Positions 779 to 61,400 of a stretch of 64,000 nucleotides of DNA are shown here, piece after piece; position 1 is the first letter of the stretch; each line of letters starts with the position of its first letter. The position numbers and the translations under genes were made by a program. Source of the stretch: Ligula intestinalis (taxonomy: Eukaryota; Platyhelminthes; Cestoda; Diphyllobothriidea; Diphyllobothriidae); assembly GCA_036362985.1 (NCBI GenBank), contig JAYGXS010000004.1, forward strand, positions 63,694,141 to 63,758,140. The letters run 5' to 3'. The notes beneath the pieces are model-generated. The model had not been told where the DNA came from and ran no database searches. It saw only the letters and a list, made by a program, of their open reading frames with translations.

Positions 779-2199
779 AGAATAGGCTACACGATAATCA
801 GTCTGACAGCCTGAGTGAATGATGATAAGCGAGTGAATATCCATCTTTCGCAAATATCGGAATTTTGCGCGAATTCGGAGACGTGCTGTAGTATCCGTGG
901 ACACGTAACTTAGACACAAAACGTTAAAATCAGCAAAAATTCGAAGCATATTTTATAGAAAATTTGGCCACCTTGCAGTATATGTAGGACGCGCAAAAAC
1001 GTAACCAAAGTTGGAAAATCAGCAGACAGCGATTTTATTTGGCCCATAAAAAGATAGTAAAATGTGCCGACAAAATTCAAGAATGAACAAACTTTTTACA
1101 ATTTTGTTTTTTGGTTTGGAAAGAGTTGGAGGACTGAAAATTCAACATCGAAATTTATCAGTTATCAGAGAAAATTTATTAATAAATATGGAACATATTT
1201 ATCACAGACCCACCGTGTGGATACATATTTTCTGCAGACAGTATGCTCCGCATTTGCACGTGGCCACAAATAAAAGAAAAACCGTAATCTGCTAAAAAGG
1301 AAGGTAAGAGAACTGCCTACCCAGTTAAACGCTCCAGGAAACCGTCCTTTTCGAAATAAATAATGAAAACTGAAGACTAAAATGTAGTTACTGATATCGC
1401 AAGAATACCCTAAATTACAGCGAACCTGGCCAGCACCATGAAGCACATAGCAATTTTACCGATACATTCTCTTTTTATACAGAAAATAACAAGACTGCTT
1501 TTGCATCTGCAATTGAGAGAATAATTTCTTCGTCAGTGATAACGCATTCCCCATACATGACCTTACGAACACCCTTATTCCTCTAAAACAAAGTAAACCT
1601 CCCGTCGTTTAAATCAACCACCTTCTGGTTCAATAAAAATGCGTAAAAATATCAGATTTTCTTTACATCATTTTGAAGCACGCACTCAAGCCTCTGAATG
1701 TCACCCATCTGCCTTACTACATACTGCAATAACTGCTAGAGAATATCCAGTCTGAGGAGCATCTTAAACGTTTCACAATGACATTGTTCCCAGTCCATAT
1801 TACTTTCTTTGAATGGAAAGTCCTTATGGACTTCTGTCAGTTAAGGCTGATTGTTTGACTCGAATATTCGGACTTAGCCATTCAGACTTCTTCTAGAGAT
1901 ATTGATATTCTTGAGCGCTCTATTTAACATTGAGAAATTCACATGTATAAGCGTTTACCTAAGAGTCATTCGGCATTCCATCGAAGCACAAAGCAGTGCA
2001 TTTTGGCTGACAGTTAAGCTTATCTTTGTAAATTTACGCATATCGCATGAAATATACTATCTACTAAAGTAAACGATTTCCGGAGAACAAGATTACAGTA
2101 GGTGATGAAGATCATGCAATGCTAATTATTAAATTTGCTGGACACTTAAGCATAAATTTGAAAATACTATTGTGATTCATTCAGTTTATTGAATTCTGC
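779..2199. other. Non-coding AT-rich stretch
   Basis: No recognisable gene, RNA or repeat. The open frames are short, overlap on both strands and have no family resemblance. Confidence 0.5.
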
Positions 2200-3770: not shown

Positions 3771-5796
3771 AGCTGATTTCCCTAATCAGGATTAAAAGTA
3801 GACGAAAAAGCAATTCAATGGTTACTAGTCAGCGCTTCCGAATAAATGATTGGTAATCAAAAACTGTTCGTGTCATATTTGAGCAAATATATTTATGCAT
3901 GCTATGTTGAAAACAAGTCGGTTACTGTTGGACTCAACAACGCAGAGAATCAATTGGAAAAGTCATTTCAGAGGAGCACAATCAACCAAGAGGAAAATTC
4001 CCGTGAGAGGACGGAGAACGAGATGAAATTTTCAAATTTCAAACGCTTTTACGCTTCTTGCACAAATTGCCCTATCTATAGAGTTTCTAGACAAAGCCCC
4101 CTTTTGCACTCCAAATAAGTGATACCTCCAAAAGTTAATTAAAGCCTTAAATTACAAACAAGAATCGCTGCCATCTCGAGTCGAGCAGCCAAACGCGGCC
4201 TCTGTATTCCTAATTGGAAATAAAAATAATTTTAATGACCAAGCAATTTGCCAGTTGTGGAGCTTCCTTGAATCCATTGGGAGCAGAGTTTTTTACAGAT
4301 CGTTGAATCGTGTAATTAGAGTGACCACACAATGCTTCCATTTAAGCCAAAATTGGGAAAAAATGCAAAACTTTTAAACTGCCTCTCTCAGTGAGGGAAA
4401 TTGCGGTATTTTGCATAAACCAGTATCCACCAGATAGGTTCAAGTTTGCTGAATTCAAATGGAAAGAAGCATTACTTGTCTGTGATATTTTTTGGTGTGC
4501 AGGACTTCTGAAATGAGATGTAGTAGGCTCAACGGAAACCCCCATCAAACAGGAATAGGCTCCAGCTCCTGCCTCTGATGGCACCAAAATGAACCCACTA
4601 GGTACTACTGCCTCGTTCCACATTGTGCCACTTCTGAACCAGAACACTGTGGGGAGTATGGACCTTACGTTTGGCTTACCTGACCCAGAAAACGGTACGA
4701 GAACGGTATATGTGTGCCAACCTCCTCCCTGATGGAGAAGGAGAAGTTTTCTGCAAAATTTATGGCTCACTAAGGCACTGAACCCCGTTTCCGGAGGCCC
4801 CAACGGTAGGCATATTTCAGCCACAAGTAGGACTATAAACATTCCCTCGAAGTTGTTGAATTCCAGCGAGCAGCTATGGTAAGTCCGTCAGTGATGCAAA
4901 ATTAAGCGACCACGTGGGAGGAGGTGGGAGGATGAGCAGCTTCCAGTCTTGCATCATCCATAAACACTACTATTCACAAAGTTTGCTCTGCTACCAATAT
5001 TATAATTTACTTCGCTTTGTTGATTAATTGAGGCCTTATTTGATAGCAAAGGATGTCTGCGCATGTAGCACACAAGGGATCAGCCCCAAAATGACATACT
5101 TTCCTAATTAGAGTGGGGATAAAAAACAAAGAGAGCTGGAGAAAGGATCAAAGCAAGTCATTATGCTCATAGAACCTGAATAAAAAAGGGTTGGACATGT
5201 TGCTGTAGGGCCTCAGGGTAGACGTATACAAGGAGAAGTGAAAGATTTTTGCCCAGATTCCGTTTTGCAAAATTCTTAGCAAAACGCTATTAGCAAAAGA
5301 GCTAATGCAAAAAGCAAAAACAATTCTCTCGCGACCGGGCCCTGCGGATTTCGCACCAGATATGGCTGAATTCAGAAAGCCCCTTTTGTCTTCTAAGTAC
5401 TTCTTTAGTCAATGTCCGTGTAAGTACTTAAGATCAAAAAAAGCTCGTATCGCGGTTAATTCAGGTTCTGTCTTATTGTTTGGATTACGATGCCCCCTTT
5501 TGAAAAAAAAGATCCATCAAATACAGTTTTGTGATTTTGCCTGTTCACCTAATATTGGCACACCCGAAATGAAAGCATTGTAAAACACCATCCTTAGACC
5601 AATGTTTGTCAGTTCAAAGTCCCAAATCGTTTGGAACCTTCCAACGCAACATAGTCCTTCTAGGCCACGAGGCAGTCATAAATAGGCAGCCCAAAGTAAC
5701 GGTCGCCAGCTTATAAAAGCAAATAAAATTATGACAACTATTTTTTATATTTCTAAGTTATCACATATAGGGAGAATGGTGGTGTCGCTACAGAAG
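3771..5796. other. Non-coding stretch with a few unassigned open frames
   Basis: Contains an open frame at 3846-4118 (+), with a Lys/Asn/Glu-rich product and no recognised motif, and the longer minus-strand frame at 4342-4842 listed separately. Nothing else is recognised. Confidence 0.4.
4342..4842 (-). other. Unassigned 166-codon open frame
   Basis: An ATG-to-stop frame of 166 codons, unusually long for this AT-rich sequence and lying in a locally more GC-rich patch. The product is rich in Ser, Gly, Pro and Leu. The first residues are hydrophobic (MFIVLLVAEICLPLG), so a signal-peptide-like start is possible. I recognise no domain, catalytic motif or element family. It may be a chance open frame, a fragment of a degenerate repeat, or an exon of an unrecognised gene. 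There is no supporting splice-site or paralogue evidence in the window. Confidence 0.2.
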
Positions 5797-11131: not shown

Positions 11132-11355
11132 CAATACTATCTTCAAAACATACTGTTAATATTTTCAATGGCATTCCAAGTAAAAAAATAATGTAACCAT
11201 CGTTTGGACAACTAATTCAACTTTGGTTTGACTCGAACGAACACAATACTATCTTAAAAACATACTGTTAATATTTCCAATGGCATTCCAAGTAACAAAA
11301 TAATGTAACCATCGTTTGGACAACTAATTCAACTTTGGTTTGGCTCGAACGAACA
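11132..11355 (+). repeat. Tandem duplication, 112-bp unit x2
   Basis: 11132-11243 and 11244-11355 are almost identical. Both run from CAATACTATCTT through GGCATTCCAAGTAA and CATCGTTTGGACAACT to CGAACGAACA, with only a handful of substitutions. Such low divergence contrasts with the older repeats in the window and implies a recent local duplication. Confidence 0.9.
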
Positions 11356-11379
11356 CAATAAATCCACTAAATAAGTAAT

Positions 11380-42061: not shown

Positions 42062-42068
42062 CATACTT

Positions 42069-42080
42069 GAAGGGGAGGTG
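42069..42080 (+). promoter_or_regulatory. Polypurine tract (plus-strand primer site)
   Basis: GAAGGGGAGGTG lies 7 bp before the TGT that opens the LTR at 42088. This is the expected position for the PPT of an LTR retrotransposon. Confidence 0.5.
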
Positions 42081-42087
42081 CTGGTAA

Positions 42088-42456
42088 TGTGTCCATTCCC
42101 ATGATTACTTTGTTAGCATAGGCCTAGCAGACAGATAGCCTGCGCAAGCGGCGCGCACAGCAGGCTATCGATCGGCCACTGACAGCAAACACTAATTGCA
42201 GTCACCCAATCGATCATTCCAAATCTAATCACAACAATCACGCCAGCAACCAAAGCTAATTGCCCCAATGGACTTAACTCACCATCGTTTTTTCCCTTAT
42301 TCTGTTGGACCTGACACACTAATCTGACTTGCTGTAGCATGCTTGTTGCAGTAAAATTCTCCCTTCTCCGGCCAACCCAACTTCTCTCTGTCCCACTCTT
42401 ACGGGTTCCTTGGCTCGGCGTTCGATTAAGTAAGCAGTACCAGGCGGGTCATAACA
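42088..42456 (+). mobile_element. Ty3/gypsy LTR, plus orientation
   Basis: 369 bp, opening TGTGTCCATTCC and closing GGGTCATAACA. It pairs, reverse-complemented, with 42707-43076 over its whole length. It contains an inverted GC-rich word pair (AGCCTGCGC / GCAGGCTATCG). Confidence 0.65.
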
Positions 42457-42706
42457 ATTCAGCGAAGTCGTAGAAGCCAAGGTAGAAGGAGATTCTATTC
42501 TGTACAGAAAAAATAGGAGAAGAGATAACAGAAGGGTTCATTCGGCCTTTCGCCCTGGTGAGCGGTGGACGCACCGCCGCTGCTCTCACTCATGGGTCTC
42601 ACGGTTGAGCTCCACGCCAGGCCGAGTCAACCCTCTGTAATCTCTTCTATTTTTTTGTACAAAAATAAAATCTCCTTCTACCTTGGCTTCTACGATTTCT
42701 CTTAAT

Positions 42707-43076
42707 TGTTATGACCCGCCTGGTACTGCTTACTTAGTTGAACGCCGGGCCAAGAAACCCATAAGAGTGAGACAGAGAGAAGTCGGGTTGGCCGGAGAAG
42801 GGAGAAGTTTACTGCGACAAGCACGATTCAGCAAGTCAGAGCAGTGTGTACAGTCCAACCGAATTAGGGAGCAAGCGATGGTAAGTTAAGTCCATTGGGC
42901 CAATCGGCTATTGGCTGCTGGCGTTATTAGTGTGATTAAATTTGGAATGATCGATTGGGTGACTGCAATTAGTGTTTGCTGCCAGTGACCGATCGATAGC
43001 CTGCTGTGCGCCCCACTTGCGCTAGCTACCTATCTGATAGGCGTATGCTAACGGAGTAATCGTTGGAATGGACACA
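42707..43076 (-). mobile_element. Ty3/gypsy LTR, minus orientation
   Basis: 370 bp, plus strand reading TGTTATGACCCGCC to AATGGACACA. It is the inverted partner of 42088-42456, with scattered substitutions and a more altered middle (around 42800-42900). Confidence 0.65.
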
Positions 43077-43129
43077 TTACCAGCACCTTGCCTTCAAGGA
43101 CCGCTGGTGGCGTGAATTTTTCTGTAAGC

Positions 43130-44719: not shown

Positions 44720-45490
44720 TGCCAATACAAGCGAATGTGCGAGTCCCAGGAAGTAATTGAGAAGAAGAAAACTCGATCGCTGGGAGAATATGTTTATTCG
44801 CTTAACGGTTCGACACCCCTCGCAGATACATCATCAGCTAAGTAAACACAGAGCAACAGCAGATACAATTATTTTGTGTACACGAGTCTGCCATGAAATT
44901 TAAAGGCGCAGAAAAAGTTGATAAATGCTTGGAGTGTGCACTGCTTCATTACGGCAGCAATGACCTTCTGGCCCTGCAGCGTTGGTTAAGGATGATGCGG
45001 TGTCCTGTCTATGCTCCAAGCGGTGACTCACTTTGGCCAAATTAACTCGAAGCACAGAGTATAGGTTAAGCAAATCGTCGCACTTTCTGATGAATTGAGG
45101 GCCCGTGAACCATGACTCAAGGTATCCTCGCAAGAGGTGACTATTAGGTGAGCCGAAAATTACTTGAGTTGTGGTCCACGGGCCCCAATACATCAACAAT
45201 CGCAACGATTTGCCCAAACCATGTTCAGTGCTGAGATTAAATTTGGCCTAAGCAAGTCACCGCTCAGGGAATAGACAAACCAAAACCGCAGGGCCAGGTG
45301 GTCATTGCAGACGTAATGAATTAGTGCACACTCCAAGCATTTATCGCTTTTTTCTGAACGTTTGAATTTGACGGAAAACTCCTGTACACAAACTACTTGT
45401 ATCTGCTCCTGTTCTGTGTTTACGTATTTGATGGTGAATCCGCGAGGGGTCTCAAAACGTCAGGCGAATAAACATATTTTCCTCGTGATT
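44720..45490 (-). mobile_element. 5'-truncated Penelope-like element with inverted terminal arms, second relic
   Basis: Left arm 44765-45056 and right arm 45224-45490 are inverted copies. Shared landmarks include GATAAATGCTTGGAGTGTGCAC in pieces, GGCCCTGC, GCGGTGACT and GGCCAAAT. They are separated by ~167 bp. A minus-strand frame across the spacer encodes a PLE-like C-terminus. The left end has a hairpin (CCCAGGAAGTAATTGAG, purine loop, CTCGATCGCTGGG) that recurs at 58.9 and 62.1 kb. A weak direct repeat, CATTCAAAGT / CATTCAATGT (44710-44719, 45510-45519), may be the target duplication. Confidence 0.65.
44900..45217 (-). pseudogene. PLE C-terminal (GIY-YIG protein end) fragment
   Basis: The minus-strand frame contains LRGYLESWFTGPQFIRKCDD followed by NLYSVLRVNLAKV. 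This is the L-E-S-W-x-(S/T)-G-P-x-x-I-N-x-x-x-D-L-P-x-x-Y-x-x-L-R pattern I associate with the last ~40 residues of GIY-YIG-bearing PLE proteins. The catalytic part of the nuclease and the RT are absent. Conserved Asn and Pro positions are substituted (I-R-K, L-N), consistent with decay. The frame runs on into the left arm. Confidence 0.5.
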
Positions 45491-45519
45491 AAGTTCTATT
45501 CTTTTCAACCATTCAATGT

Positions 45520-46135
45520 GTACCCGTGCTTACCCCTAATTTTGATCATACTAAACCATCAAATTTTGATGTTGATATTTCATGAGTGAGACTTTTAACT
45601 TTATGGCACAGTCTGCTAAGGTTTCAATAATCCCATGTGAATATTCAACTATGCACTAAGTTTTAATAGGATGTTGAAGAAAAACTGTATGTGTGGTACG
45701 TAACGATTAAGCGATAAATTATGCATCTTATTAGAGTGAGCCGTTCTTTGACTGTATGCTTAGTGGCAATGGGATACGCCAGCCGGTCACAGGCTTACCG
45801 TAGTCGGATGCAAATGGCAAACTACAGTTCCTGGTCGACTCATAAAAATATATTTGGTTCGTAAATTTTTTTCCCGCTGAAAGGATCATTCAAAAAAGTG
45901 AAGAAGCATTGATTAACAAACAAAGTCCTGCAAATTTGTTTTCAGAATACAAATATGCCCACATGCAATCATTACTACTTAGCTAATAAGAATTGCATAT
46001 TGATCTATTATAATTCCTGAAGTGCAAATATTTTTTGTAGGACACGTGTATAAAAAAAGAGTGTCTCAAAATTCTTAGCAACCTAATAATACACTCACAG
46101 TTTTTAAAGTTATATATATTTCATAATTTTTTTGC
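45520..46135. other. Non-coding stretch
   Basis: No recognised gene. A string around 45775-45840 (GGGATACGCCAGCC...) is possibly a decayed SINE, not assigned. Confidence 0.35.
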
Positions 46136-46149
46136 AATAAATTTTCATT
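46136..46149 (+). repeat. 14-bp target-site duplication, left copy
   Basis: AATAAATTTTCATT, identical to 47097-47110. It directly precedes the ribozyme repeat array. Confidence 0.7.
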
Positions 46150-46189
46150 GATGTTGCAACTTACCACACTAACAGCCTAGGTACTTGCT

Positions 46190-46275
46190 AAAAAGCCCAG
46201 ACACGTGTTTCGCCGGTAATCTGCCACAGCTTGACACAGCTGCGAGGGCTCCGGCTCATCAGTGGGTCGCCCAGC
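46190..46275 (-). ncRNA. Hammerhead ribozyme, unit A (core intact)
   Basis: Minus strand in order: stem I 5' strand CCCA (46263-46266); core CTGATGA (46256-46262); stem II GCCGG paired with CCGGC, enclosing a ~34-nt loop with an inner hairpin CAGCT/AGCTG; core GAAA (46208-46211); a palindromic ACACGTGT; the GTC cleavage triplet (46200-46202); and stem I 3' strand TGGG (46196-46199). All invariant core positions that I can check (CUGAUGA, GAAA, UH before cleavage) are present. Stem III is palindromic and too short to fold alone, so a dimeric ribozyme is likely. Confidence 0.75.
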
Positions 46276-46524
46276 TTTCCTTATCTGCTTTCTGGTTGAT
46301 ATACCGGTTTTGAAAGTTCAGCTTTTTAATCTTCAGAGAAATTAATTTGTGATCGCGGAATATATCAGTATATGTAAGGTCTATAGGCGTAGACCGAAAT
46401 TGCAAGTGTATATTCGTGTTGAAACCCATCAACCCCTGTGAAATATACACATGCTGCCCTCAGACAGTTGTTAGTAGTATAAAGTGACGTTGTAACTTAC
46501 CATAATTACAGCCTAGGTACTTGC

Positions 46525-46612
46525 TAAAGGGCCCAGACACGTGTTCCGCCGGTATTCTGCCGCTGCTTGACACAAATGCGAGGGCTCCGGCTCATCAGTG
46601 GGTCGCCCAGAT
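46525..46612 (-). ncRNA. Hammerhead ribozyme, unit B (core mutated)
   Basis: Same layout as unit A, with CTGATGA at 46592-46598, stem II GCCGG/CCGGC and ACACGTGTC. The second core box reads GGAA instead of GAAA, which changes an invariant A of the catalytic core. I expect it to be inactive or very weak. The inner loop also lost its CAGCT pairing partner. Confidence 0.65.
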
Positions 46613-46804
46613 TTCCCTACCTGCTTTCTGGTTGATATACCGGTTTTGACGGGTTTCAACACGAATATACACTTACAATTTCGGTCTACGCCTATAGACC
46701 TTACATATACTGATGTATACCGCGATCAGAAATTAATTTCTCTGGAGATTAAAAAGCTGAACTTTCAAAACCGGTATATCAACTAGAAAGCAGATAGGGA
46801 AAGC

Positions 46805-46890
46805 TGGGCGACCCACTGATGAACGGGAGCCCTCGCATCTGTGTCAAGCAGCGGCAAAATACCGGCGAAACACGTATCTGGGCCTTTTAG
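46805..46890 (+). ncRNA. Hammerhead ribozyme, unit C (degenerate)
   Basis: Plus strand CCCA, CTGATGA (46816-46822), then ACGGG instead of GCCGG, so stem II is weakened. GAAA is intact at 46867-46870. The stem III palindrome is broken (CACGTATC instead of CACGTGTC). Stem I TGGG is present. Recognisable but probably impaired. Confidence 0.65.
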
Positions 46891-47096
46891 CAAATACGTA
46901 GGCTGTTAGTATGGTAAGTTATAACGTCAATTTATACTACTAACGACTGTCTGAGGGCAGAATGTGTATATTTCACAGGGATTGACGGGTTTCAACACGA
47001 ATATACACTTACAATTTCGGTCTATGCCTATAGACCTGACATATACTTATATATACCCCGATCAGAACTTAATTTCTCTGGAGATTAAAAAAGCTG

Positions 47097-47110
47097 AATA
47101 AATTTTCATT
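47097..47110 (+). repeat. 14-bp target-site duplication, right copy
   Basis: AATAAATTTTCATT, identical to 46136-46149. It follows directly on partial unit D, with which it shares the AA at the junction. Confidence 0.7.
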
Positions 47111-50039
47111 TTGAGAGAGCTCTTATCTTCTTTCCATTGAATGTATGAGATTTGGAAAGGTCTCCAAAGAGCCTTTTCTCCGTGTGGCCAACGGGGATCT
47201 CTCCAATCCAGCAACATCAGTATGAACGCAGAGATTCTACTCAAGTATATTACCAAGAATTGACCATAGATTTTCAAATAAATTAAAGGCAGGACTAAAT
47301 GCTGTCCACATGCCTTTCCTACACAAAAAAGGAACTTTTAGGCTTCCAGGGCTGCGGCTTCGTCCCGCATAAGAATAATCCTTCACACTTCTAGAACAAG
47401 TTTATTCTCAAATTTGGACCTGTCCATACGTTTAAGTACAATTTATGAAACAAGCTTTAGTTAAGAATCTCCCGTCTAGTATATCCAGCATATATTCGAC
47501 TCTGTGGACAGAGAGCCCTCCAAACGTCCTTGTTCCCCATACCATCACTGGAAAGCTAACATGCGGAACTTAAACATTCTCAAACATTGTACGATTTGGA
47601 GCCCCAATAACGTCATTTTTCTGTGTTTTTGCGGGTGGAACAATTAATACGTCAAATCATTGCGGCAGACGACTTGTTTCCAGTCGTCTCCAATCCATCT
47701 TATGACCACTTTACAAGAACTCATCCTATCCTTGATTAGTTGTTCAGTTCCCGTAAGGCTATTCGTTCTTTGATAGGTGGTTAAATCCAAGTGTGCTCTT
47801 AAGTACCGGTGCACACTGGATTCAGAAACCCTCAGGCCTTTAAAATTTGGTTTCTTTGCGCTATTACTCGCACTTTGCCTTGGTATACGAAAAGATTTTT
47901 CGAAAATGATCTTTTCAATTCTTTCCAACATTTCTCGTCTTTCAGAATTTTCCTTTTTTGGCAGAGTACCTCTACGTTTGTAGCTTGACTACTAACGTTT
48001 GACCGTCTGCATATGTACACCTTAAACATTATTATCCTTCAGTCACTTCACTCCGGCCTCTATCCTACCTTGAGGTCGACCTCTGTCCTATGAGCTTCTT
48101 GTCGTCAGAATTCCTGATACTGATTTGTACTGGTTTAGAGCTTTCCCTTTTATCTGTGCTGCTGTACAGTATAGTAAACGTTGCATTAACGCTTTAAATA
48201 ATAACTCACCAACCATTGATGTTGAGGAACATATAAAATTATTGCTAAGTATTCACTGTTAAGGAAATTCTCTAACCTCAAAAATATGCAAATAATTTTT
48301 GGACACGCTATATATTCCATGTCAGCAAATCACCTTTATCTCAAAAATTATTTGTTTATTGTCAAATAACACATTATCATCATTTTCTTAGACAAACACT
48401 GTGCACGCTATTTGACGTTATAAAAATGGCATGCTAACAAGTATGAACGTGTTGGGCACAGAAATACGAGATTCGTACTACAGGCAGCCTTGCTCTAAGT
48501 TACATAGGTTAAATGTTTCCTAATGGTTATTCTTACCTTCTTGATTTTTCTGACAGGTATTTCCCTAACGCTGAATCTAACTGCCAGAAAATTTAACGCA
48601 AGCTCGCTTTAAGTAAGTCAATTTACACAAAACAGTGTTGTAAGGTGTTTGGAGCATCGTGAATAGTACAAAAATAGCATACATAATAGTAAAGATGCAA
48701 TTCTACCTGAACCAGTGGTAGCCTTAATCTTTTTCCTGATTGCAGATTGTTTTAAATGCAAACAAAACCGTCTTCTCGTCCTCGCTAAGTAAGAAAACAG
48801 TCCATTTTAGAAGAAAAACAACAGTTTTTTTATTTACGATCGTTAAAAATATCGAGTAATCAAAATACAATGAAAATGTTTGGCATGAATTGTGTTATTA
48901 TTTTAGTGATTTAAATGTTAAGACAGTTTGCAGCGCCCAAGCATCTTCTGCTAATCGGCTTGTCAGAGGCAGACTTTTTTTTGAAGCTAGAACCCGTACA
49001 ATGAGTTTTTGAGTCTGCATTATTCCTACCGCCACCACATATCATATATATTTTAACAAACTCGCCTACAGTAACGCCCATTGATTGTAAACTACTTGAT
49101 AGATGCACGTAAGCTATGAATAGAGAAATTATTGCCTTAAGTTAATTAAATTGGGATTAATATGCTTCTTTTCAGTGCAAAAGTACTTACATGCATTTTT
49201 CCTCATTAGCCGTAAATAAGTGTCGCGACATCCCCATATCTATTTTCCTGTATGAAAAAGATTACAACTTCTGCCAATTACCCGCGTTGCTTGCACTCCG
49301 GAAGCAGAAAGCAACAGATTGTAGATTGATGCGAAGATACTACGCCTGTCTACATTTGTTGGAATAAGCTGTACCTTTTAAGAGAAGACTCGGTAAGCAG
49401 AAATATCAGGCAAGAATATTAAGAGTGCATTATCACCTATATTGGTACCGCACTTTGCACTAACCAGGTTTTGTCAGTTAGCTATGAGCAAATGTATTCC
49501 CAACAAAAAATCATATCGCTCGAAGTATTAGCTAAAAATGGAAAATAGGTTTAAGAGTATAAAATATTGTCCAAATTGCGTTGTTATACTTATTATCGTA
49601 ACGCCTTATAATAAAATATTAAAGTTGCGGCGGAGGGTAATTTCATAGACAAGTTCCTCGTTAAGTAGCCTTCAAAAACTAAACTGTGTAATAAATGGCA
49701 ACTTATATCAATGATTGTTTTGTTGATATTCATTGGTGTTATAAATTTAAATTAATATTGATATAATGTGTCTACGTTACTATTTGTCGTACGAACTTGG
49801 AAGAGAATCGTGTATTCTTTAAACGTAATTCATCCAAAAAGCCAACCCTCTGTTGTTAAATGAAAAGATAAGATAATATTTAGATTGACTTTTTGTGACC
49901 ACAAAACTATCATACCTGTAAAGATATTTAAAATCAAAATTTAAAATTTCTAGAGGCAATGAAATTAAGAAGATCTTTATTTGTTTCTACAGGTGCGCAG
50001 GAAATAATTGTTGTTTACGTTTTCTATAAAATAGGATGG
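47111..50039. other. Non-coding AT-rich stretch
   Basis: No recognised feature between the ribozyme array and the intact PLE. Short open frames near 47644-48029 are on both strands and unassigned. Confidence 0.4.
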
Positions 50040-50166: not shown

Positions 50167-50511
50167 ATGGCGGGAAAAAGGCCGAGGCAGCTAGAGTTAG
50201 AAATCGCATTTGAGAGCCTCTTTAGCCAGACTGCTGACCTAAAATCTACCAAGCCTAGCGAAGTTGATTATCTCAAGTCGACGCTGGTGAACTGCTGCCA
50301 GCAGTATTTGAGAAAGGTCCCAACGAACAAAGGCCCCTTAACAAAGGCTCATCTGGATAGCCTAAGAGAACTCCGAAGAAACGACGACATCGTGCTAACA
50401 AGACCAGACAAAGGGTCCGGAATAGTACTGATGAATAAGAATGATTATGTTACGAAACTAGAAGCCATCCTGGCAGATCGTTCGAAGTTTACAAAATTTA
50501 GAGAAGGATAA
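50167..50511 (+). CDS. PLE polyprotein, N-terminal part (before frameshift)
   Basis: 114 codons from ATG 50167. An in-frame TAA about 30 bp upstream makes this the first usable Met. The segment ILTRPDKGSGIVLMNKNDY (residues ~75-95 region, here DDIVLTRPDKGSGIVLMNK) is the conserved start of PLE reverse transcriptases (the xxKADKGNxxVVM box). The frame then runs into an early stop. The homologous continuation (EKDKERTEAVEGQLTAIL) is found in the next frame from about 50490, so a single-base frameshift around 50485-50500 breaks the gene. Confidence 0.75.
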   Translation: MAGKRPRQLELEIAFESLFSQTADLKSTKPSEVDYLKSTLVNCCQQYLRKVPTNKGPLTKAHLDSLRELRRNDDIVLTRPDKGSGIVLMNKNDYVTKLEAILADRSKFTKFREG

Positions 50512-50578
50512 GGAGCGTACGGAGGCCGTCGAGGGTCAGTTAACTGCAATTCTCAAAGACCTGCACAAGGAAGGTTTC

Positions 50579-52273
50579 TTGTCTGACAAAGAGCTTGAAA
50601 GAATGAGACCTGTAAGCACGACAGTACCTAGAATGTATGGCCTGCCGAAAATCCACAAACAGGGGTTACCCTTGCGTCCCATCCTGGATATGAGGAACTC
50701 CCCTTATCACGCCATTGCCAAATGGCTGGTAGAAAAGCTAAAACCACTTGGCAGTGACCTATACTCTCGAAGTTTGAAAGACACGTTTGAGTTTGTTGAG
50801 GCTATAAAGGATATGAATGTTGGAGAAAGTAAGATGCTCTCATTGGATGTATCGTCACTTTTTACCAACGTACCCGTGGTGGAAACCATTGACTACCTCT
50901 GTGATGTGATAAGGGACACGAACTACCGGATAGGTATACCCGTGAAAACCCTGAAAGAACTTCTTGCGAGATGTACGCAAAATGTGCAATTTCTCTGCAA
51001 TGGTCAATTTTGCAGACAGATAGATGGTGTGGCAATGGGCTCACCACTTGGCCCGTTTCTCGCAAATGTCTTTATGGGCAAGATCCAGAAAACTTGTCTA
51101 AGGGACACTATCAATGACCTTGCGTTTTACGGTCGATATGTTGATGACATCTTCTGTTTGACCGACTATAACGCGGACACTGACGCTCTGGTCGCGAAGT
51201 TTAACAACGCGCACCCATCTCTCAAATTTACTGCAGAGACAGAGGAAAATGATGAAATTTCGTTTCTTGATGTCCATCTGCGAAGGCAAGATGATGGATC
51301 GATCCTGCGTAGAGTCTTTCGAAAGAAAACCTGGACGGGACAATACACCAACTTTCACAGTTTTGTCCCCCTAAATATAAAACGAAATCTAGTCCAGGGA
51401 CTAGCAGCTAGAGTACGAAAGATCTGTTCTCCCGAAACTGTGGAAGCAGAGCTCCAACAGCTGCAGCAGATACTTATCGAAAATGGATGCCCGGAGAGGT
51501 TCATCCTCAGGAATATTGGCGAGCGATCCAAAAAGCCTGATACCTTAACAGCAGAAAAGAAAGACGTTTTCATAAGACTGCCTTTCTCGGGCGATGCAGC
51601 AAGCGAGCTGGTCAGACGGCGTCTAAGAACCGCAATCGTTAGCGCTTTCCACGCGGCGAACTTACGGGTGTTCTTCACGAACTCTCCCCTCCTACGATTA
51701 GGAGAATCAGACCGACTCCCGTTGAAGGCCACATCTATATGTATTTACTCTTTCACTTGCTCCTGTGGAGCAAGATACATAGGCCGAACAACGAGGCACA
51801 TGGAAAAGAGGGTACGTGAGCATATACCGGCCTGGTTAAATAAAGGTGAAACTAGATCGATTTCGAGTTCATTTCTCGCACACCTCGTCGATGCGAATCA
51901 TCGAGTCGATACTAACAAAGCCTTTCAGGTTGTCTACCGGACACCATCCAACTTTTCCAAGGGCCTACGCCAAAGGGTGCTTGCAACAGCCGAAGCAGTA
52001 GCTATACGGCTAGAGAATCCGGTGCTGTGTTGTCAGAAACTGACAGAAGCCTTTTCACTTCCGTGGCTGACCCCGACGACAGGAAACGATCGCACTTTGC
52101 CCCCACGCCCCAGTGAGAGTCGTTCGCTGTGCACAAATAGCAGCAATTATCCCCCCATGCATCTGCCATCTGATCAACCCCACAACCTAACCCAATTACC
52201 CTCCCTACCCCTCCTCCCCTCCCCGGACGCACAAACCTCTAAACGCCGACCTCGCCATGCGGGCGACGCGTAA
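50579..52273 (+). CDS. PLE reverse transcriptase with GIY-YIG endonuclease
   Basis: 564 codons from the first Met after the frameshift; the true frame opens earlier, at about 50490. The RT has YGLPKIHK (residues 20-27), motif A SLDVSSLFTNVP (88-99, catalytic Asp 90), motif B GVAMGSPLGP (150-159) and motif C YVDD (187-190). A thumb region follows, with FLDV at 229-232. The nuclease has CIY (388-390), the CSC pair (394-396), YIGRTTR (400-406) and a catalytic-type Glu 472 in AEAVAIRLENP. The last ~60 residues are Pro/Ser-rich. RT copies element RNA; GIY-YIG nicks target DNA. All checked catalytic residues are present. With the N-terminal part the protein would be about 700 residues, a normal PLE size. 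Confidence 0.92.
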   Translation: MSDKELERMRPVSTTVPRMYGLPKIHKQGLPLRPILDMRNSPYHAIAKWLVEKLKPLGSDLYSRSLKDTFEFVEAIKDMNVGESKMLSLDVSSLFTNVPVVETIDYLCDVIRDTNYRIGIPVKTLKELLARCTQNVQFLCNGQFCRQIDGVAMGSPLGPFLANVFMGKIQKTCLRDTINDLAFYGRYVDDIFCLTDYNADTDALVAKFNNAHPSLKFTAETEENDEISFLDVHLRRQDDGSILRRVFRKKTWTGQYTNFHSFVPLNIKRNLVQGLAARVRKICSPETVEAELQQLQQILIENGCPERFILRNIGERSKKPDTLTAEKKDVFIRLPFSGDAASELVRRRLRTAIVSAFHAANLRVFFTNSPLLRLGESDRLPLKATSICIYSFTCSCGARYIGRTTRHMEKRVREHIPAWLNKGETRSISSSFLAHLVDANHRVDTNKAFQVVYRTPSNFSKGLRQRVLATAEAVAIRLENPVLCCQKLTEAFSLPWLTPTTGNDRTLPPRPSESRSLCTNSSNYPPMHLPSDQPHNLTQLPSLPLLPSPDAQTSKRRPRHAGDA

Positions 52274-52420
52274 ACGATGAATTTTAATTAGACTACACTA
52301 TTTAACCCTGTCCATCTGTCTAGTTTTAATTAGCTTGCAAATGTTTTGGCCTGACGATGATTTGCTGAAAACATATGTTTGCCAATCTTGACTTCTCAAC
52401 TTAAGAAGGGGAATATTTGC

Positions 52421-54339
52421 AGATCTTTAAAAAATGTTTGTTCAAAAGACGGCATAAAGAAGTCAGCAGTATTAACAGGCTATATGGTAAGAAGTATTAA
52501 GTCTCTACTTAGGTAACATTTCCGGGTCAAAAGCGCATTTTAGAATTTTACTCCAATCTTCATGAACTAGCAAAGTGTATCGTGATTACAGCACGGAACA
52601 GAACATTTTCGCTTTTTCTTGTTGCTGAAAGCCTTCAGTCAACACATTCTGAAGCATGGGGAGTAAATGTACATCCAAATTTTAACTGAATGTCCAGTAC
52701 AAACTTCGATCTATGAATGATGCTGCCTGATGACTAAAGTAATCCAGGGATGACTTTTTCAAGCATATGTATTACGTTTTTGATATGCATCTCTGTAAAA
52801 ATTCTTTGCATGCCTGGAACTTGCACTTAAAGTTGAAATATAAGCAGAAAACGGACAGCTACGTATGGAAAAAATGCACACTTCTCAGGATAAAATATAA
52901 ACCTTTAAATCTTACAATTGTTTATTTATCAAACATATCGATTTATCTCAAAGAGAATGAGCAGTCATTTTGTATTTACCCATAATTTAATTTTTTTCAA
53001 AATTTAAGTGAGTGATTATAAATCATGGGCATTTACTTTCATAAGCATATTGTTTCCAATGGAAAATTTGTCAGTTTAGCTGCTTAAATGACATTGAACG
53101 AATTCTGGTTGCCACTTGTACTGCTTAGATTTTGAATTTCAATATTCTTTAATTATAAATGATATTGTATGGAAAAAAGTGGTTAAAATATGCTTGAATT
53201 CATCTTGCAATTTATGCCTTCCGTTTTTTACGAACTTATTTGATTTATTATTATTTTATCAACTTGATGCGGTGTGTTTTTCTTTTATGTCTTAGAAAAT
53301 TGTTTGCAGATCTCTTTAGGTGGCTTTTTCCGTTCATAGGATACTGCTTAAAAGAGGGCTGTAGCGTTTTTGAAATGTAGGAGCGCCTATTTGCAGTCTT
53401 TTATGCTTGAAAACGATCGCAGATAGTCATTCCGTTTTCTTCCAATTAATTGTCTGAAATATTTTCTTAATAACCAAGATGGTAGGAAATGGTCCGTTGG
53501 GCTTATCTTATCTTGTAAGACGGTGCTGTTTGATAAAACGTCACTTTACAGCCTGGTTTTATGGCGGCTCGTGGTTAAATCACGAAGATCTCGGGAAACG
53601 AACGCTTCAAAAGAGTGAACTTGCAACTGAAACAATGGAAGCTCAGTGTTTTCTTTCACAAATACGTAGATACATTCAAAATTGATAGATATGTACACAA
53701 TACACTCAGAAGCACGCCAGCTGGAGCTGTTTTCTACGAGCAATCGGTGAGATGACAGTTAGGGAGACTGGGATCCAACACTTGGGATAAAAAATCTACC
53801 TTCAGTCTATCGAACGCTTTGTCTATGGACAGATAATGCATTCCGGGAAATTGCAGAGACTAATTGAGTTTAACTTTTCAAAGGTTTAGATGATGCTCCG
53901 TGTAGTCATAAAATCTAAGGAGATATTTATTACTTGGTAGCTTGCAGTAAAATTGGAGGAGAACTTTAAGCAACCCTTAAGGGTACATATAAATTCTTTG
54001 CATATTAAAAACTACGACAGCAATCATAAAAGTTCACCCTAATTTACACTCGCTCAGATGCTTATATAGGCATAGCACCATTTAAAAGTGAGCGAAGAGT
54101 CAAATATGAAATGACATGCCCTTTAAAGCTTATCAGAAATAACGGAATTCACGGAATGTTTGCAAAAAGCCCATGGAAGAATGGAGACTTGCGAAAGGCT
54201 AAAATGTTGCAATGGAACAGTTCTTGCCGATTTATTCGAAGGCCTTGCTGACTTTACAAATGACCAGAAATCTTGACAAACGCATATGTCCTTAGCCATT
54301 ATTAGTTAATAGTCCATTTAGTCAAACGTTTTAGTTCAT
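52421..54339. other. Non-coding AT-rich stretch
   Basis: No recognised feature. Confidence 0.4.
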
Positions 54340-60738: not shown

Positions 60739-61400
60739 TTAACCATTTTTCGTCCATTCAACTAGGCGGTCAAGTCCTTCTTGCAGAGTTTGTTCATCAT
60801 AAGTGCTTCTAATAGGTTGCCATATCTTAATATAATCGGCAAACAAGACTCCATTGCTGACCAGTCCATGCCTACAGGCGTTGACGTAGATTAGGAACAA
60901 TAATGGCCCAAAGATGGAGCCCTGAGGCACTCCACTTGCAACTGGCACAAAAGAGGATTGTGTCGTTCCAACGCACCAACGGTCTATCAGAAAATCTCCT
61001 TCCCAATTTCGTAAATTTCCCCTTATCCCAGATTCACCAACCTTGAAGAGTAGCCGTTGGTGTGGGACACTATCGAAGGCCTTTTCAAAGTCTATGTAAA
61101 CGACATGTACGGGGGCATTTTCATCTAATGACATGGACCACTGCTCCATAGAATAAAGCATATTGGTCAGGCAGCAGTGGTTTCCGCGATATTCGTGTTG
61201 GGCATAGTCAAAATAGTCTTTTTATTCGGGGAACTCCATGGTAGCCTTTTTGATGATCTTTTTCAAAACTTTACAACAGATGCAAGTAAGGCTCACTGGT
61301 CGATAGTTGTTTGCGCTGGTTCTGGATCCACCCTTATGAATAGGGTAGATGTTCGCAACTTTTCAATTGGATTGGAGGAGGCCTCGCCCTATCTGCGCAT
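60739..61400 (-). pseudogene. LINE reverse transcriptase
   Basis: The N-terminal part (61400-61170) gives VANIYPIHKGG and NNYRPVSLTCICCKVLKKII, typical of the first RT blocks. The open frame 61161-60739 (140 codons) contains HVVYIDFEKAFDSVPH (motif A, catalytic Asp), SGVPQGSIFGPLLFLIYVN (motif B) and VLFADYIKIWQ (motif C). Motif C should read F/Y-A-D-D; here the second Asp is Tyr, which would abolish activity. The shape is that of a CR1/Jockey-like RT. Confidence 0.88.

Follow-up and report, generated by a model that had tools for sequence, protein, structure and literature searches.

A hammerhead retrozyme of Ligula intestinalis with two fixed internal 3′ ends and a candidate Penelope-like mover

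The window, i.e. the whole 64,000-nucleotide stretch of Ligula intestinalis DNA that was analysed (C4:63694141-63758140), carries at 46150-47096 a single insertion of 947 bases, which is bounded on both sides by identical 14-bp target-site duplications. The evidence supports a non-coding, mobile hammerhead retrozyme of the non-LTR type. In kind it is an ordinary hammerhead retrozyme. New is its anatomy, with two dedicated start sites, A and B, which are found together in every head-to-head copy sampled; also new are the start-site letters that the retrozyme has in common with a Penelope-like element that the same genome contains. These features suggest that a Penelope-type reverse transcriptase (RT) copies the retrozyme into DNA, here from both cut strands, each at its own spot on the RNA. 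We assign a probability of roughly 0.7 to this reading, a non-LTR retrozyme that is moved by a Penelope-like RT able to prime on both cut strands.

Architecture of the insertion

An earlier note on this DNA had described a hammerhead ribozyme in a tandem unit of 336 bp at this place. Its limits proved exact, with the target-site duplications directly adjoining both sides, and the period was recovered from two direct repeats, 165 and 117 nt long and spaced by 336 (identity 90% and 92%, respectively). The repeats thus stand, whereas the plain tandem order does not, as the whole is made up of two arms arranged head-to-head (Table 1). The left arm has its sense strand on minus and the right arm on plus, and the two are joined back-to-back, both sense strands pointing outward. 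The arms are related to each other by inverted repeats, 327 and 293 nt long and 91% complementary, and in this copy the BLAST pieces of the left and the right arm overlap by 11 nt at the junction. The earlier description had included neither this arrangement of the arms nor the two fixed 3′ ends, nor a Penelope-like element whose RT frame sits 3.4 kb from the insertion.

No stop-to-stop frame of at least 150 aa overlaps the 947-bp element. Since it thus has no RT/GIY-YIG open reading frame, it can be at most a passenger and not an autonomous Penelope-like element. Together with the hammerhead, the many copies and the target-site duplications, this bears out the previous assignment as a non-autonomous retrozyme. 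A plain tandem satellite was ruled out by the target duplication, the head-to-head arms and the dispersed copies.

Table 1. Features of the retrozyme insertion and of the neighbouring candidate Penelope-like element (positions in the window)
Feature	Position	Strand	Evidence
Left target-site duplication AATAAATTTTCATT	46136..46149	none	identical over 14 bp to 47097-47110
Left arm (~1.5 units of 336 bp) with its outer 3′ end, end A, at unit ~51	46150..46649	-	direct repeat at spacing 336, 90%; circular-unit mapping
Hammerhead core, unit A	46196..46266	-	sequence; descriptor with chance rate
Second core, GGAA replacing GAAA	46523..46614	-	sequence, core alignment, retrozyme-core covariance model
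TTGA common to both arms at the head-to-head junction	46646..46649	none	read by eye
Right arm (~1.4 units) with its outer 3′ end, end B, at unit ~219	46650..47096	+	inverted repeats; circular-unit mapping
Internal copy of the B start-site motif, TGAACTTT	46758..46765	+	sequence
Third core, right arm; stem II ACGGG for GCCGG, GTATC for GTGTC	46800..46891	+	sequence, core alignment, covariance model
Internal copy of the A region, predicted stem-loop	46905..46944	+	fold -7.8 kcal/mol, 11/200 shuffles as good
Right target-site duplication AATAAATTTTCATT	47097..47110	none	exact copy of 46136-46149
Open frame, Penelope-like RT, candidate autonomous partner	50462..52273	+	Pfam RVT_1 5.1e-10
3′ end of the candidate element: hammerhead-like CTGACGA...GAA-AACATATGTT-T, no-tail end (~52399), tail end (~52423-52430)	52350..52430	+	genomic copies

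The hammerhead core

Read on the minus strand from 46266, the core of unit A has the order CCCA-CTGATGA-GCCGG-(34 nt)-CCGGC-GAA-ACACGTGT-C^TGGG, in which the caret marks the predicted cleavage site after C46200 of the GTC triplet. Stem I pairs CCCA (46266-46263) with TGGG (46199-46196), CTGATGA lies at 46262-46256 and GAA at 46211-46209, and stem II pairs GCCGG (46255-46251) with CCGGC (46216-46212) around a loop II of 34 nt. Stem III consists of the palindrome ACACGTGT (46208-46201), which is perfect and loopless; judging from hammerheads with a short stem III, the dimer is therefore the likely active form. With CTGANGA...GAA...NTH, three helices and an open stem I, the window core has the conserved layout of a type I hammerhead. 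The parts that had been read previously on the minus strand of unit A, i.e. CCCA/TGGG, CTGATGA, a clamped stem II, GAA(A) and the GTC triplet, are all present. The inner hairpin that the earlier note had drawn into the loop of about 34 nt fares differently: the loop length is confirmed, whereas part of the hairpin is private to unit A, as it depends on AAGCTGTGG, at which place AAGCAGCGG is the majority reading among the 102 aligned cores.

The full hammerhead descriptor has one match in the window, in unit A, versus one in 205 Mb of simulated single-strand sequence built from the dinucleotide frequencies of the window. It was found 39 times, in 33 of 59 sources, among the 58 sampled genome loci and the window. 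A significant match to a covariance model, which had been set as a test of the ribozyme, was not obtained: at the Rfam gathering thresholds the whole window gave no match, the best hammerhead in a relaxed Rfam scan of 46100-47150 was Hammerhead_3 (16.9 bits, E 1.9, not significant), and cmscan with E up to 5 listed no hammerhead in nine further loci (eight retrozyme, one Penelope-like). The Rfam models probably miss this hammerhead because of its 34-nt loop II. The retrozyme-core covariance model recovers its three own copies in the window and found nothing in 14 Penelope loci; an exact DNA search of viral contigs with a 22-base piece of the core gave no match.

The core alignment comprises 102 of 111 cores, since eight that are cut by junctions and one with 65% identity were left out. 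Covariation was tried as proof of the ribozyme and dropped, because the 102 cores show no gain over shuffles (92.1% paired versus 91.9%). Double changes occur at three helix pairs, again not above shuffles, and one stem II pair changes from C-G to U-A in four sequences. From the same cores RNAalifold returned four weak pairs only and did not recover the hammerhead fold. As the retrozyme copies are decaying relics, flat covariation is weak evidence either way.

A dispersed retrozyme family

The assembly searched (644 Mb, 2377 contigs) contains 390 matches to the exact core plus cleavage-site pattern, and 1459 matches, with up to three mismatches, to a 26-base family stretch around B; the reversed control gave 0 in each case. 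A genome search for further copies, as the earlier note had proposed, was thus successful. With a 351-base query, 40 of 3214 first-look candidates were scored, which gave 110 matches. The sample of 58 loci was drawn in two ways. The first 38 are the best matches to the 351-base query, so that long copies are over-represented, and the further 20 follow the listing order of the core pattern, with known places left out and neighbours merged. These 20 loci contributed 7 of all 21 two-armed copies, each with A and B. Being short, non-coding and repeated over several units, with a type I hammerhead and many dispersed copies, the family agrees with animal non-LTR retrozymes.

Animal non-LTR retrozymes have units of 170-400 nt, and Penelope-like elements are described as no more than a strong candidate for their mobilising enzyme (Cervera and de la Pena 2020, PMC7229834). 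The element described here resembles them in the type I hammerhead within a short unit (here 336 nt), the multi-unit copies, target duplications of more than 4 bp and the Penelope-like elements alongside, which bear hammerheads there and a hammerhead-like motif here. Unlike those retrozymes, for which the main text of PMC7229834 does not use the word 'inverted', 21 of the 59 copies are head-to-head here. Further differences from the animal retrozymes of that paper are the two fixed 3′ ends, which in head-to-head copies are always A+B, and the loop II of 34 nt.

Two of the loci, L057 (1348-3051) and L012 (2298-4201), contain divergent units (67-75% relative to the unit of the window) that follow one another head-to-tail in long arrays. 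These arrays keep recognisable cores and are satellite-like relatives of the retrozyme family. Schistosome hammerhead satellites (Sm-alpha) and W-elements are known from flatworms as units of ~330 bp with type I hammerheads. Unit length, hammerhead type and flatworm host are similar in the present family, the sampled copies of which, unlike Sm-alpha, are dispersed short insertions with fixed 3′ ends, long arrays being found in 2 of 58 loci.

Two fixed 3′ ends and dispersed 5′ points

The 58 loci and the window were mapped onto a circular unit, in which position 1 is the first base past the cleavage site. The end counts leave out L012 and L057, because their arrays reach the locus edge or an N run, as well as BLAST pieces below 80% identity and elements shorter than 150 bp. 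On the 59 delimited elements there are 80 outer 3′ ends, 53 of which lie at A, 22 at B and five elsewhere. The ranges of A (41-69) and B (209-229) together make up 50 of the 336 unit positions and hold 75 of the 80 ends. Every two-armed copy has one A and one B end (21/21). The single-armed copies (n = 38) end at A in 32 cases, at B in one and elsewhere in five; these five other ends stay in the counts, and in L020 and L047 the printed flank continues to end A. Where the target duplications are exact, the common end letters are ...ACAACGTC immediately before end A, and ...AAAGCTG before end B, which is followed by A.

A and B are spaced by ~168 nt, i.e. half of the 336-nt unit, which may be chance. 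An old 168-bp duplication behind this half-unit symmetry was rejected, as self-comparison of the unit at every offset gave no peak at 168; the best values, 102 of 336 letters, were reached at offsets 304, 265, 71 and 32.

At the other side of the arms the picture is entirely different. The 5′ points of the 80 arms are dispersed evenly over the unit (chi-square p 0.90) and do not pile up at the cleavage site, with 2 of 80 lying at most 3 nt from it versus 1.7 expected. Fixed 3′ ends together with even 5′ points are what target-primed reverse transcription leaves behind when it begins at two set places inside the template. Arms longer than one unit are common at A (39 of 53) and occur at B (8 of 22); the longest measures 834 nt, and apart from the L012/L057 arrays the arms in the sampled copies reach at most 2.5 units. 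Target duplications with a score of at least 10 were found in 16 of 59 copies versus 4 of 600 mismatched flank pairs. In the 19 copies scoring at least 9 they are 9-15 bp long, i.e. longer than 4 bp as in known retrozymes. Where two arms on opposite strands meet head-to-head, an overlap of 1-11 nt is present in 12 of 21 adjacent pairs, which resembles microhomology joining.

These counts bear on the possibility that we are dealing with a fold-back DNA transposon, or with a plain satellite that contains a hammerhead by chance. Two long palindromes nearby (42066-43098 and 44757-45508) and the partly palindromic insertion itself would fit such an origin. However, 3′ ends that are fixed while the 5′ points spread are the mark of reverse transcription, and a fold-back transposon was rejected on these grounds; 38 of the 59 copies are single-armed, and recurrence of the descriptor in more than half of the sources, versus once in the simulated sequence, speaks against a chance hammerhead. 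We consider this explanation extremely improbable.

The nature of the template

A cut linear monomer is disfavoured as template, as the 5′ points lack a pile-up and the 3′ ends do not lie at the 3′ end of the monomer. Since arms are longer than one unit, with internal 3′ ends and no 5′ pile-up, the template would span the cleavage site and be either a circle or an uncut multimer. In the latter case, the same element would be moved by the same enzyme from an uncut multimeric transcript, the hammerhead being a by-stander or active elsewhere. In the lizard Penelope system, unprocessed RNA is the main substrate and hammerhead mutants insert in vitro, so that a circle is not required there (Frangieh et al. 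2024, PMC11167929); the two long divergent arrays among the 58 sampled loci would likewise agree with a multimeric template. Against it stand the sampled copies, which, beyond these two arrays, end at A or B with short arms. Moreover, multi-unit arms would need a circle or rare array sources, because an insertion made from a linear transcript of an earlier copy would be as long as that copy or shorter. On this argument, which is not a measurement, we favour the circle over the uncut multimer, a template that we regard as possible but distinctly less likely.

A candidate Penelope-like element nearby

The open frame at 50462-52273 has its best named relatives in Sparganum proliferum (77%) and Spirometra erinaceieuropaei (80-81%), which points to a diphyllobothriidean-like tapeworm as host. 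A GIY-YIG-like motif near its end was read by eye; Pfam gave no GIY-YIG match in this frame, and 20 GIY-YIG are among the matches listed elsewhere in the genome. NCBIfam returned distant RTs only, below cut-off, and a PDB search with the frame no useful match. The element is therefore a candidate Penelope-like element on the basis of Pfam RVT_1 and eye-read motifs, and no search names it Penelope. Just upstream of its 3′ ends, a hammerhead-like motif with TGGC/GCCA (52350-52384, plus strand) is conserved in the copies read; its stem II is weak.

For the 3′ region of this element, 40 of 4017 candidate copies were scored. The 39 copies besides the window's own end either at query positions 495-507 (12 copies) or at 519-545 (27 copies), and none ends between; these correspond to the no-tail and the tail ends known from Penelope elements (PMC3846280). 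Of four head-to-head pairs that could be read, L073, L079 and L080 have one tail end each, the other arm ending at 52376, 52398 and 52352, respectively; the second end is thus less fixed. By eye, these pairs are flanked by duplications of ~9-13 bp.

For Penelope, head-to-head inserts are described as frequent, and one of the two inverted pieces may bear a tail (PMC3846280). With the purified protein of the lizard element, reverse transcription began internally on the RNA, at two sites in an AC-rich stem-loop, and both strands of AT-rich DNA were cut and extended; the start sites in vitro did not appear to differ between the strands (PMC11167929). Penelope-like elements as described in these two papers resemble the retrozyme in the head-to-head pieces with an optional tail on one of them, the internal RT start at two sites and, as proposed for the retrozyme, the cutting of both strands. 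Duplications of 8-10 bp are reported there, compared with 9-15 bp in the retrozyme. Unlike Penelope, the retrozyme encodes no protein, and its start sites are ~168 nt apart on a 336-nt unit versus some 24-40 nt.

Start-site motif and structure

In an alignment of the four start sites, end A reads GTCAATTT, end B CTGAACTT and the Penelope ends CTCAACTT and CAGAACTT, with the common block [GC][TA][CG]AA[CT]TT. The motif was picked after the ends had been seen, so that its statistics are overstated: 27 of 32 letters equal the column majority, a value that none of 400 random four-site sets with equal shift freedom reaches, and WSAAYTTW, expected 0.27 times per 336 nt by chance, occurs on the unit chiefly at 49 (61 of 107 covering copies) and at 216 (59 of 103), the next best place having 8 of 84. 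The core of the Penelope tail end, GCAGAACTTT, has its closest match on the unit at B, with 9 of 10 letters versus 7 of 10 at the next best place. The 16-letter tail end matches B at 11 of 16 letters, which 284 of 3000 random Penelope 16-mers equal or beat somewhere on the unit. For the no-tail end, comparison with the unit revealed no special letter match at A. It is important to note that the roles of the ends are not one-to-one, since single retrozyme arms end at A and most of the Penelope copies (27 of 39) at the tail site with its B-like letters.

For the family-majority A region, a stem of 14 pairs with a CAAC-containing loop of 8 nt, ACAACGTC, is predicted, and end A is located at the 3′ edge of this loop. 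The stem-loop is only modestly special, as 63 of 1000 shuffles of the family-majority sequence are as good. The B region gave no single predicted stem-loop, and folding of two other left-arm stretches yielded nothing.

In LINEs, too, twin priming leads to head-to-head inversions, and their target duplications are of such a size. Their ends usually lie at the 3′ end of the RNA, and the second priming point varies. It is thus conceivable that the mover is another retrotransposon, e.g. a LINE, and that the likeness to the Penelope ends is chance; the window does contain an RT fragment that belongs to a different class and probably comes from a LINE (60739-61221, minus strand; RVT_1, 1e-13). However, A and B are fixed and internal, and they have letters in common with the Penelope ends. 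We therefore judge a LINE or similar mover unlikely.

Proposed mechanism

For the favoured Penelope-like mover, we propose that transcripts with two hammerhead cores would cut themselves into 336-nt monomers, which would then be closed into circles. A Penelope-like RT/endonuclease would nick both target strands 9-15 bp apart. Reverse transcription would start inside the RNA, not at its end, at one of two dedicated sites, either at A, 51 nt past the cleavage site and at the edge of the predicted stem-loop, or at B, about 168 nt further. If one strand is primed, a single arm would result, as a rule ending at A. If both are primed, one start would be at A and the other at B, each of which may circle the template more than once, and the two cDNAs would be joined head-to-head, in about half of the cases by a few shared bases. 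The genomic copies directly show where the ends lie, how they are paired, the duplications and the arms of more than one unit, whereas self-cleavage, circular RNA and the nature of the helper enzyme are the parts that we infer. Against this model we count the Rfam misses, the flat covariation, the modest A stem-loop and B without a single fold, and also the end roles that are not one-to-one, the post-hoc motif, the less fixed second Penelope end and the weak Penelope stem II.

In LINE twin priming, the use of both strands is an accident. As a tentative and rather less probable extension, the retrozyme might be a two-handed RNA template, on which a dimeric Penelope-like RT/endonuclease sits on one circle with two sites spaced by half a circle; A+B would then be obligatory and two-strand priming built-in.

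In the papers searched, we found no description of a paired, two-start-site retrozyme anatomy, and none was found that joins retrozymes and twin priming. In the parts of the literature covered, retrozymes together with target-primed reverse transcription led to LTR elements only. Records on hammerhead ribozymes in tapeworms, by their titles and the beginnings of their abstracts, concern no such elements.

With regard to the enzyme that moves animal retrozymes, the ends that a retrozyme family and a Penelope-like element have left in one and the same genome can now be compared side by side, with fixed internal RT starts, a common short motif, head-to-head copies and similar target duplications. 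A and B supply exact nucleotides to mutate in an assay with purified RT, and the A+B ends of all two-armed copies would reveal in what way an insertion makes use of both strands of a single target.

Additional observations

At one place on C8 (about 994.3-996.5 kb; L069/L070), a head-to-head Penelope pair has tail ends on both arms. Its flanks are identical outward over 25 printed letters, and it therefore looks like an inverted duplication rather than a normal insertion. In L022, two single-armed retrozyme copies in inverted orientation (1506-2039, plus strand; 4561-4951, minus strand) lie 2.5 kb apart and have an identical core; this is possibly another inverted duplication, though counted as two copies.

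The window stretches 42066-43098 and 44757-45508 are near-palindromes, with 84% and 73%, respectively, self-matching on the opposite strand. They end 3.1 kb and 0.6 kb ahead of the retrozyme insertion and are probably fold-back elements. A tandem repeat of 112 bp in two copies (96% matches) is located at 11132-11360. In L062 (2295-2456), two close tRNA-like matches on opposite strands (35.3 and 30.4 bits) perhaps represent a tRNA-derived SINE.
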